A stretch of 64,000 bases of DNA. It comes from Hyphomonadaceae bacterium. GTDB taxonomy: Bacteria; Pseudomonadota; Alphaproteobacteria; Caulobacterales; Aquidulcibacteraceae. The stretch is taken from positions 62,001 through 126,000 of the forward strand of contig JAEUMT010000036.1 in the NCBI GenBank assembly GCA_016791365.1. The letters run 5' to 3'. Of the stretch, positions 10,314-45,631 are shown piece by piece (the first letter of the stretch is position 1; the number at the start of each line of letters is the position of its first letter). Position numbers and translations under genes: made by a program. Under the pieces are notes generated by a model. That model made no database searches, had not been told where the DNA came from, and was given only the letters and a program-made list of their open reading frames with translations.

Positions 10314-10416
10314 GTCATTCCGGGGCAATGCACAGCCCGCAATCCACTGGGCGTCAGACAGTCTCGCGTTTGCCCCTGGATTCCGGGCCGCGCTGGGGCG
10401 CGTCCCAGAATGACGA
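10314..10416. repeat. R1-variant palindromic repeat
   Basis: GTCATTCCGGGGC at the left and GGATTCCGGGCCGCG ... CCCAGAATGACGA at the right form an inverted pair resembling the R1 element but with ATTCC in place of ATCC. It lies between the amidohydrolase and corA genes, both on the minus strand. Confidence 0.7.
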
Positions 10417-11843: not shown

Positions 11844-11942
11844 CGTCATCCTGGACGTGCGGAGCACGGCCGGGATCCAGGGTTGGCTGCGCAGCTTGTG
11901 GCCTCTGGATCCCGGTCACGCTGCGCGTGCCCAGGATGACGG
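11844..11942. repeat. R1 palindromic repeat
   Basis: Inverted arms CGTCATCCTGGACGTGCGGA and GCGCGTGCCCAGGATGACGG, each with an inner GGATCC (CCGGGATCCAGGG and CTGGATCCCGG). This is the same element as the two copies fused to the GIY-YIG gene at 13.2-13.4 kb. It fills most of the 238-bp gap between the amidohydrolase and the APH-kinase gene. Confidence 0.9.
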
Positions 11943-12011: not shown

Positions 12012-13091
12012 CTACTTGAGGCCGGCTTTTTGCGCGTAGTGGAACGATGCTGCCGCGAGCGGACGGATGCGCTGGATCATCTGCGCGGCGTGGGCGCTGG
12101 CGGCGGTGCCGTCGCGCACGCGCCCTGCGATGCCCTGCAGAATGCAGGCGAGGCGGAAGGCGTTGTAGGAGAAGTACCAGTCAAGTTCGGCGATGCTGTC
12201 GCGGCCGGTCTGCGCGCAATAGAGCTTTACGGTTTCGTCGAGTGTCGGGATGCCGAGCGGGGCGAGATCGACGCCGCCGAGGCCGGAGCGGCCGTCATGT
12301 GGCATGACCCAGTTCATCAGGTAGTAAGTGAAATCGCCGAGCGGATCGCCGAGCGTTGAGAGTTCCCAGTCGAGCACGGCGATGACGCGTGGTTCGCTTT
12401 CGTGCAGCACCATGTTGTCGAGGCGATAATCGCCGTGGACGATGCCGGTGCGTTCGCCGGCGGGAATGGTCTGCGGCAGCCATTCGATGAGACGATTCAT
12501 CTCGTCGATGGTTTCGGTTTCGCTGAGTTTGTATTGCTTCGACCAGCGGTCGATCTGGCGGCCGAAATAATTTCCCGGCTTGCCGTAGTCGCCGAGGCCG
12601 ATAGCGACGTGATCGGTGTTGTGGAGTTTGGCGAGCGTCGCGATTTTGTTTTCGTAGGTGGCGCGGCGATCTTGCTTGCTCATCTCCGGCAACGCGCCGT
12701 TCCAGAGCACGCGGCCTTCGACCATTTCCATGACGTAGAACATCGCGCCAAGGACGCTGTCGTCGGTGCAGAGCGCGTATTGCTTCGCGACGGGAAAGCC
12801 CGTCGGGTGAAGCGCCGACATGACGCGAAATTCGCGATCGACGGCGTGCGCCGAGGGCAGGAGTTTGCCGCCGGGCTTTTTGCGCAGGACGTATTTGCGC
12901 GACGGCGTGACGAGTTGGTAGGTCGGGTTCGATTGGCCGCCTTTGAACTGATTGATGGTCAGCGGGCCGGCATAGCCTTCGACATTGGCGTGCATCCATG
13001 CGTCGAGCGCAGCGTCGTCGAGTTTGTGGCGCTCTTCGACGGGCTTGGTGCCTTTGAAGTTTGCATGCGGGTCTTCGGCTGGCTCAGTCAT
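12012..13091 (-). CDS. APH-fold phosphotransferase, ACAD10/11 kinase-like
   Basis: A 359-residue protein with the aminoglycoside-phosphotransferase-like kinase fold. The ATP-site lysine lies in RKYVLRKKPGG, the catalytic loop is GIVHGDYRLDNMVLH, and the magnesium Asp is in IAVLDWELSTLGDPLGD. The opening INQFKGGQSNPTYQL is characteristic of the kinase half of ACAD10/ACAD11, which phosphorylates 4-hydroxyacyl-CoAs so that the dehydrogenase half can remove the phosphate. The dehydrogenase counterpart may be the gene at 2519-3805. The two genes are 8 kb apart, so the link is inference. Confidence 0.88.
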   Translation of the reverse strand: MTEPAEDPHANFKGTKPVEERHKLDDAALDAWMHANVEGYAGPLTINQFKGGQSNPTYQLVTPSRKYVLRKKPGGKLLPSAHAVDREFRVMSALHPTGFPVAKQYALCTDDSVLGAMFYVMEMVEGRVLWNGALPEMSKQDRRATYENKIATLAKLHNTDHVAIGLGDYGKPGNYFGRQIDRWSKQYKLSETETIDEMNRLIEWLPQTIPAGERTGIVHGDYRLDNMVLHESEPRVIAVLDWELSTLGDPLGDFTYYLMNWVMPHDGRSGLGGVDLAPLGIPTLDETVKLYCAQTGRDSIAELDWYFSYNAFRLACILQGIAGRVRDGTAASAHAAQMIQRIRPLAAASFHYAQKAGLK

Positions 13092-13101
13092 TCGTTTGTC
13101 T

Positions 13102-13143
13102 CGTCATTCTGGGTTCAATGCTTCGCATTGCCTCGGAATGACG
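13102..13143. repeat. Short hairpin repeat, R1-like ends
   Basis: CGTCATTCTGGG and CCTCGGAATGACG flank CAATGCTTCGCATTG, a strong hairpin. It lies upstream of the APH-kinase start and next to the tandem R1 copies, forming part of the same repeat cluster. Confidence 0.55.
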
Positions 13144-13155
13144 ACAAGGGCCGTC

Positions 13156-13255
13156 CGTCATCCTGGACGTGCGAAGCGCGGCCGGGATCCAGGGGTAACC
13201 AGTGCGCCTCGTCCCTCCTGGATCCCGGTCACGCTGCGCGTGCCCAGGATGACGG
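13156..13255. repeat. R1 palindromic repeat, distal copy within the GIY-YIG gene
   Basis: Arms CGTCATCCTGGACGTGCG and GCGCGTGCCCAGGATGACGG with inner GGATCC boxes. It encodes the last ~32 residues of the GIY-YIG frame, and the TGA stop of that gene lies inside the left arm. Tandem with the copy at 13319-13416 at a period of about 163 bp. Confidence 0.9.
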
Positions 13256-13742
13256 GGTTAGTCGTCTCGCCTGAGATGCCGCGGCGAGAGGAAGTCTTAG
13301 TGCAAGTTGCGCGTTCTTCGTCATCCTGGACGTGCGAAGCGCGGCCGGGATCCAGGGCAACCATCGCGCCTCGTCCCTTCTGGATCCCGGTCACGCTGCG
13401 CGTGCCCAGGATGACGGAATTAACGTCTTGCCTGAGGTGTCGCGGTAGGAGGAAGTCTTCGTATAGGTCGCGCCATGTTGGGTTTTCGGATTCGATCAAC
13501 GCCAGCTTTTGCTTCCGTCCGAAGCGTTTGAGTTCCTTTTCCCTGGCGATCGCGGTCAGCATGTCGCTGTGCTGTTCCCACCACACGAGCAGCTTGCATC
13601 CGTATCGTTTCGTGAAGCCGTCCATGCGCCCTTCGCGGTGTGCGAGGCCGCGTTGGAGCAGGTCACTGGTCACGCCAACATAGAGTGTGCCGTTGCGTTG
13701 GCTCGCCATGATGTAGGCCGCGATGAACTCGTAGCGGCCCAT
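13158..13742 (-). CDS. GIY-YIG nuclease with repeat-encoded C-terminal extension
   Basis: A 194-residue frame. Residues 1 to about 105 are a GIY-YIG (URI) nuclease domain: AAYIMASQRNGTLYVGVTSD carries the two-strand signature, then LLQRGLAHREG with the catalytic-type Arg, and the late Glu in REKELKRFGRKQKL. Single-domain proteins of this type usually end near here. Residues about 109-141 and 163-194 are instead translated from two R1 repeats, separated by a diverged copy of the nuclease's own 3' end. The extension is probably not a functional domain. The nuclease may nick or cut DNA; its link to the repeats is discussed as a finding. Confidence 0.85.
   Translation of the reverse strand: MGRYEFIAAYIMASQRNGTLYVGVTSDLLQRGLAHREGRMDGFTKRYGCKLLVWWEQHSDMLTAIAREKELKRFGRKQKLALIESENPTWRDLYEDFLLPRHLRQDVNSVILGTRSVTGIQKGRGAMVALDPGRASHVQDDEERATCTKTSSRRGISGETTNPVILGTRSVTGIQEGRGALVTPGSRPRFARPG
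13319..13416. repeat. R1 palindromic repeat, proximal copy within the GIY-YIG gene
   Basis: Nearly identical to the copy at 13156-13255. The ~60 bp following each copy (toward the nuclease gene) are also alike: CTTGCCTGAGGTGTCGCGGT versus CTCGCCTGAGATGCCGCGGC, then GAGGAAGTCTT in both. So the duplicated unit includes the 3' end of the nuclease coding region. Confidence 0.9.
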
Positions 13743-45524: not shown

Positions 45525-45631
45525 CGTCATCCTGGGTCGTGCGGAGCGCGGCCCGGGATTCAGAGGTCGTAGAGCTGTGCGGTTGCCCCTGGATCCCGGG
45601 TCTTGGCTGACGCCAAGCCCCAGGATGACGG
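45525..45631. repeat. R1 palindromic repeat
   Basis: CGTCATCCTGGGTCGTGCGG and CCCAGGATGACGG arms with inner CCCGGGATTCAG and CTGGATCCCGGG. The right half (GGCTGACGCCAAGCC) is a sub-variant. It ends four bases before the gshA stop and probably terminates both convergent genes. Confidence 0.87.

Follow-up and report, generated by a model that had tools for sequence, protein, structure and literature searches.

A small GIY-YIG nuclease gene and its own flanking palindromes form a conserved genetic unit proposed to spread CGTC REPs

The stretch of DNA analysed here (the window, 64,000 nucleotides of contig JAEUMT010000036.1 of a Hyphomonadaceae bacterium) contains a small GIY-YIG nuclease gene which runs into a palindromic repeat, R1, that also occurs elsewhere in the genome. 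The locus raises the question whether gene and repeat belong together and whether the one could move the other. The original prediction was that the gene may be the mobiliser of R1, with a nicking nuclease in place of the transposase of REPIN-RAYT systems. The features of the locus are as follows.

11844..11941, no strand: dispersed R1 dimer without a gene, 1.2 kb downstream
12012..13091, minus strand: phosphotransferase (APH)-like gene, one border of the insertion site
13156..13254, no strand: R1 palindromic dimer, second tandem copy, holding the stop codon of the read-through frame
13158..13742, minus strand: GIY-YIG nuclease gene, 194 aa (open reading frame with PF01541 match)
13263..13312, minus strand: copy of the nuclease 3′ end ahead of the second R1, 78% identical
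13319..13416, no strand: R1 palindromic dimer proximal to the gene, two CGTC-tagged halves, tags outward
13424..13473, minus strand: nuclease 3′ end ahead of the first R1, original of the duplicated segment
13749..15023, minus strand: purD-like gene, other border of the insertion site, ending 7 bp before the nuclease gene

The conserved domain (approximately 13446–13742) makes up the first 99 codons of the nuclease frame, and the rest is R1 DNA read in frame. A Pfam scan of the window protein gave PF01541 (GIY-YIG) alone (E 9e-11, residues 10–79, 42.3 bits against a curated cut-off of 22.6), with neither NUMOD nor any other DNA-binding domain and no HUH/Y1 domain. NCBIfam contained nothing specific for the protein, and the nearest solved structures are those of the UPF0213 proteins 1zg2 and 1ywl. 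The residues Y10, Y21, R31, E68 and N87, which we take to be the conserved catalytic Tyr, Tyr, Arg, Glu and Asn of GIY-YIG enzymes, are invariant in the alignment of 21 relatives. The comparison of the 99-aa domain with its orthologue in the related genome G029 (dN 0.061, dS 0.843) showed that it is under purifying selection.

As originally described, the nuclease frame crosses one R1 dimer and stops in the second, and the two dimers stand in tandem at about 163 bp (161–163 bp from start to start). The repeated unit was also correctly recognized as the 3′ end of the gene together with R1: approximately 50 bp of the gene precede each dimer, 13424–13473 and 13263–13312 being 78% identical over 50 bp. 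The fusion of gene and repeat is real in the window, and it is a local accident of this lineage. The G029 orthologue, which is 88% identical and located at the same site, has a single R1, and its frame stops 27 nt past the domain, ahead of the repeat. Because this orthologue ends before R1, the fusion was ruled out as a functional feature.

The R1 dimer is approximately 98 bp long and consists of two facing halves (CGTCATCCTGG-N8-AGCGYGRCCGGGATCCAG) separated by a spacer of about 25 nt, with the CGTC tags outermost. Each half (CGTCATCCTGG...CCGGGATCCAG) carries the CGTC tag at one end and a CCA tail, as CGTC REPs do. The R1 loop is longer, and partly unpaired, compared with the four published CGTC REP families; with its imperfect stem, R1 is missed by a strict hairpin detector. 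The gapped R1 pattern matches 3 times in the window, where 0 matches are expected, and R1 is therefore not a chance occurrence. Eighteen half-elements, corresponding to approximately 9–10 dimers, were counted in the 3.46-Mb genome, two of the dimers lying at the nuclease gene. The sequences outside the tags of the copies are unrelated, and Rfam gave no match. The gene-less dimer at 11844–11941 is missing from the syntenic interval in G029. The expected coincidence of R1 and the gene was borne out in part within the genus: R1 was found in 6 of 30 genomes, including all three whose nuclease gene has R1 beside it, and of the three R1-bearing genomes lacking an R1-flanked gene, two (G012 and G003, in which the gene was not detected) are incomplete drafts.

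The genome of the window (G000) has two more GIY-YIG genes. One of them has palindromes (R2) on both sides; the other has two tandem palindromes (R3) at its 3′ side, and here too the duplication comprises a whole unit. The sequences of the three palindromes R1, R2 and R3 are different. Away from their own genes, R3 is absent from this genome and R2 almost absent; this near-confinement implies that the palindromes travel with the gene instead of being drawn from a scattered pool, and also that not every such gene spreads its repeat.

How general the association is was assessed at 216 GIY-YIG loci, of which the order supplied 62, the class 70 and a named set from many phyla 84. This last set was retrieved with a consensus protein, the alignment of 21 sequences being too divergent as a query; the consensus biases the set towards this nuclease subfamily and not towards any flank. 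Palindromes within 150 bp were scored with a sequence-free gapped inverted-repeat score, with open reading frames of the same contigs as controls. This score was used instead of RNALfold energies because the GC-rich background yields many strong folds, and gaps were allowed since an ungapped score misses clear repeats at two loci (L038 and L039). A palindrome was found at 44 of 62 GIY-YIG loci of the order, compared with 10.7% of 847 control frames (Fisher P 1e-25), at 30 of 68 in the class (controls 8.0%, P 7e-13) and at 36 of 83 in the many phyla (controls 11.5%, P 3e-11); these P values, like those below, take no account of phylogeny. Homologues mostly lacking the repeat, which would have spoken against the original prediction, were thus not what the survey found, provided that the repeat is understood as each nuclease's own palindrome.

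A second detector recorded CGTC-type hairpins within 250 bp; it misses R1, so its counts at the order level are low. In the set of many phyla, such hairpins were present on at least one side of 64 of 84 genes (8.9% of controls, P 1.5e-39) and on both sides of 47 (1.7% of controls, P 1.9e-39), and GTCA...TCCA halves were found at 64 of the 84. The 8-mers enriched in the flanks make up the CGTC REP consensus; one of them, GTCATTCC, is present in 58 of 84 flanks (7.6 expected). At approximately one quarter to one half of the loci no palindrome was picked up by the detectors.

The flanking repeats have a regular arrangement. Where hairpins stand on both sides, they face each other across the gene with the tags outward (REP> [gene] <REP) in 35 of 47 cases from many phyla and 13 of 18 from the class. 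Most of the gene-flanking halves in other phyla have a stem of 8–9 bp starting with AT and a loop of 4–5 nt, and at L081 and L315 complete REP dimers stand on each side of the gene. All listed close pairs of scattered REPs have this same orientation, with tags outward. In genome G258 the scattered dimers have spacers of about 50–120 bp, and the nuclease gene lies within one such pair. The shared orientation makes the scattered dimer look like a unit without the gene, which occupies the position of the dimer spacer.

The two hairpins of a gene also match each other (0.781, compared with 0.435, sd 0.017, after shuffling). Among non-syntenic gene pairs from different phyla or classes, flanking repeats were shared by 1% of pairs at a protein score ratio of 0.4–0.5, 5% at 0.5–0.6, 20% at 0.6–0.7, 54% at 0.7–0.8 and by 8 of 8 pairs above 0.8. 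Gene pairs within one genome with a ratio below 0.7 shared them in 3 of 33 cases, and in G151, which has ten such genes, the palindromes are mostly different, the left one usually matching the right one. The repeat type tracks the relatedness of the nucleases and not the host genome, and the gene with its own flanking palindromes is a conserved genetic unit.

The unit is present or absent at orthologous sites, that is, it is gained and lost. At the purD site, gene and R1 are present in G000 and G029, and G027 has a remnant in which the first codons are joined to the end of R1. The purD-APH interval is empty and free of REPs in G001, G004, G006 and G022, and G010, G020 and G024 have a different REP dimer at the site. 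In Azospirillum lipoferum 4B, a unit with REP dimers on each side is located between sufB and sufC. Neither unit nor REP was found between these genes in A. ramasamyi, A. oryzae, B510, A. argentinense, A. brasilense and A. thermophilum, the flanks of which are up to 97% identical to those of A. lipoferum. In Shinella PSBB067 and in the Niveispirillum/G258 lineage, other nucleases (48% and 64% identical to the A. lipoferum protein, respectively) with other REPs occupy the same place. As the three nucleases are not mutual closest relatives, three separate insertions at sufB-sufC are likely to have occurred. Neither an exact insertion junction nor a target duplication was discernible at the purD site, which is too divergent, or at sufB-sufC, where in the best empty-site pair the flanks differ by approximately 20–45 unaligned bp around the unit.

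Further observations concern such sites and copies. The position right after the sufB stop codon seems to be a recurrent insertion site (L129, L242, L315 and L330). Broken or truncated GIY-YIG copies (L088, L124, L149 and L169) and fragments (in G054 and G008) fit elements that turn over, and up to 11 GIY-YIG matches were seen in one genome.

The abundance of CGTC REPs was compared in 290 alphaproteobacterial genomes by means of a fixed pattern, the reversed control pattern of which gave zero matches. At least 10 CGTC REPs were present in 31 of 98 genomes having this nuclease subfamily, in 2 of 52 with only weaker-scoring GIY-YIG proteins and in 6 of 140 with neither (P 4e-10); 39 of the 98 carriers had none by the fixed pattern. 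RAYT-type Y1 transposases, which are scarce in alphaproteobacteria (PMC6006769), had no effect on CGTC REPs once the nuclease was held constant, and the effect of the nuclease persisted both with and without Y1. Many copies without the gene, the other finding that would have opposed the original prediction, were encountered in a minority: six near-complete genomes (G261, G320, G256, G189, G136 and G234) contain 29–105 well-formed CGTC REPs and uvrC as their sole GIY-YIG gene. Genus-mates of three of these retain the gene (G161, G258 and G339), and the REPs of the six may be orphans left after gene loss or may be served by another enzyme.

The predicted link between gene and repeat was thus borne out and is not limited to R1: matching palindromes occur in many phyla, their type goes with the lineage of the nuclease and the abundance of CGTC REPs is correlated with the subfamily. 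The nicking and moving ascribed to the nuclease belong to the explanation that we favour, with a probability of roughly 0.6, in which gene and palindromes form one unit, the nuclease recognizes, nicks and mobilises its own REP and the scattered dimers are gene-less derivatives. From the linkage, layout, pairing, copy-number correlation, presence or absence at orthologous sites and selection that were observed, we infer recognition, cleavage, mobilisation and a single-stranded intermediate. The unit would consist of a CGTC-tagged hairpin, a short spacer, the nuclease of approximately 100 aa, another short spacer and the inverted hairpin, approximately 0.4–0.6 kb in total, and head-to-head dimers such as those of R1 would derive from it by loss of the gene. 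The nuclease would recognize its own hairpin, probably as single-stranded or cruciform DNA, and nick it close to the unpaired CGTC tag or at the tag itself; from this nick the whole unit would be copied or moved, as would, in trans, the gene-less dimers. To our knowledge, GIY-YIG enzymes are hydrolytic nucleases and do not act as strand-transferring transposases, so that host repair or replication would have to complete the movement. The nuclease would then have the role for CGTC REPs that RAYT transposases have for GTAG REPs, its fold and chemistry being unrelated to theirs. What weighs most against this explanation is the existence of the six REP-rich genomes lacking the gene and the failure to read an exact junction.

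Other explanations have to be weighed against this one. The nuclease could be a homing-like parasite which cuts the spacer of REP dimers and has its gene copied in there, the REPs being spread otherwise. In favour of this, the gene occupies the position of the dimer spacer, homing endonucleases of the GIY-YIG type have been described (PMC1564403), some REP-rich genomes lack the gene, and lineage-specific pairing would also be expected of a nuclease that matches its target. Recognition of the REP is common to this explanation and the favoured one, but homing predicts REP dimers at empty sites, and none were found at sufB-sufC of the six Azospirillum strains or at the four empty purD-APH sites. 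Moreover, R3, confined to its own gene, provides no pool of targets, many genes have complete dimers on each side (as at L081 and L315) and NUMOD was not seen in the window protein; we consider homing unlikely. It is still less probable that the unit is mobile with palindromic ends which merely resemble the scattered CGTC REPs, these stemming from RAYTs, other transposases or replication errors. A broad spectrum of transposases was indeed proposed in the 2013 survey (PMC3733652) and the window's genome has three Y1_Tnp matches, located elsewhere than the nuclease gene. Yet Y1 shows no association with CGTC REPs once the nuclease is taken into account, and none of the tyrosine transposase genes in the survey itself had CGTC repeats at its flanks.

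A host nuclease that trims or polices REP hairpins, with the flanking palindromes exerting feedback control of its expression, would account for the strong purifying selection, and hairpins adjacent to genes can serve as terminators or mRNA stabilisers. The patchy presence of the gene, the occurrence in one genome of many paralogues whose repeats differ, the fragments and remnants and the insertion within the sufB-sufC operon make such a housekeeping role very improbable. That the association is due to chance or to detection we regard as next to negligible: REPs favour intergenic DNA, where small genes lie, and R1 is multicopy in the window's genome, but when only intergenic control sides of 100 bp or more were counted, the palindrome was still found at 10% of control sides versus 44% of GIY-YIG sides. 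The left-right matching and the lineage pairing also argue against an artefact, and so do uvrC and other GIY-YIG loci of REP-rich genomes, which had a lone hairpin at 1 of 18 and were otherwise unflanked.

The favoured explanation, a nuclease acting on its own REPs, places the unit among the systems consisting of REPs and an enzyme. In REPtrons (REPIN-RAYT), too, a single small enzyme gene is flanked by REP hairpins in inverted orientation, each tagged with an unpaired tetranucleotide, and cognate pairs of REP and enzyme as well as scattered gene-less dimers are common to both. Their enzyme is of the HUH/Y1 type (TnpA-REP, related to IS200/IS605) and their tag GTAG, whereas here a GIY-YIG protein, the cleavage by which is inferred, is combined with CGTC. 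The unit is REPtron-like but not a REPtron, since the HUH enzyme and the GTAG tag were tested for and are absent; it is a new relative of these systems, with a REPtron-like arrangement and a different enzyme and tag. The CGTC REPs described earlier, which include Neisseria dRS3 and Rickettsia RPE, share the tag, the head-to-head dimers, the CCA tail and the main home in alphaproteobacteria (Di Nocera et al. 2013); as described, they are without a dedicated transposase, whereas here a nuclease gene lies inside them.

With stand-alone bacterial GIY-YIG proteins (COG2827/UPF0213, Slx1-like), the nuclease shares the single-domain form; weaker-scoring GIY-YIG proteins have no association with CGTC REPs, in contrast to this subfamily. 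GIY-YIG homing endonucleases have the same catalytic fold and a similarly selfish-looking distribution, but the genes studied here are not in introns or inteins, they have hairpins on both sides and their empty sites are REP-free. As in MITEs and their parent transposons, gene-less pairs of terminal repeats occur beside rarer copies carrying the gene; unlike there, no DDE transposase is present and target duplication was not detected.

Few bacterial repeats are as common as CGTC REPs. The survey that defined them in 2013 judged that they ‘apparently lack a dedicated transposase’ (PMC3733652), and the survey of the GIY-YIG superfamily does not mention palindromes (PMC1564403). Our literature search, with preprints and most subscription journals outside its scope, found no paper joining GIY-YIG proteins with REP sequences. 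We propose the GIY-YIG nuclease as the best candidate so far for spreading CGTC REPs, which names a specific enzyme for the question left open in 2013. The enzyme–repeat pairs predicted from sequence alone in dozens of genomes turn it into a question for the bench. If the proposal is true, REP systems can use a hydrolytic nuclease in place of a transposase, and a function is obtained for the many genes whose sole annotation is ‘GIY-YIG nuclease family protein’. In its widest form, for which the odds appear to us about even, the unit would be a class of minimal mobile elements in many phyla, with a GIY-YIG nuclease of approximately 100 aa as the sole protein acting on its own terminal hairpins. 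CGTC REPs, with Neisseria dRS3 among them, would then be non-autonomous copies of it, and GIY-YIG proteins would represent a further enzymatic route for the spread of bacterial DNA elements.

Some single loci deserve mention. In Neisseria gonorrhoeae (L314; NZ_CP119142.1, 1878719–1884985, a chromosome-sized record, yet listed as a plasmid), an unannotated GIY-YIG gene with 65% identity lies among CGTCATTCCCGC repeats of the dRS3 type. In plasmid p1 of Planktothrix agardhii (L319; 15859–22113), a GIY-YIG gene amid GTCATTCTGA-type repeats has an MmeI-type restriction enzyme on one side and DISARM drmA on the other. Within the window, a degenerate CGTC-type hairpin (cgtcattctgggttc...cggaatgacga) at 13092–13146 is located directly upstream of the start of the APH-like gene, and a similar copy is found at L040 (6715–6767). 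Additional GTCATCC/GTCATTCC half-elements are present at 45526–45629 and also at 10314, 47161 and 5355, those at 45526 and 45620 having a dimer-like spacing.
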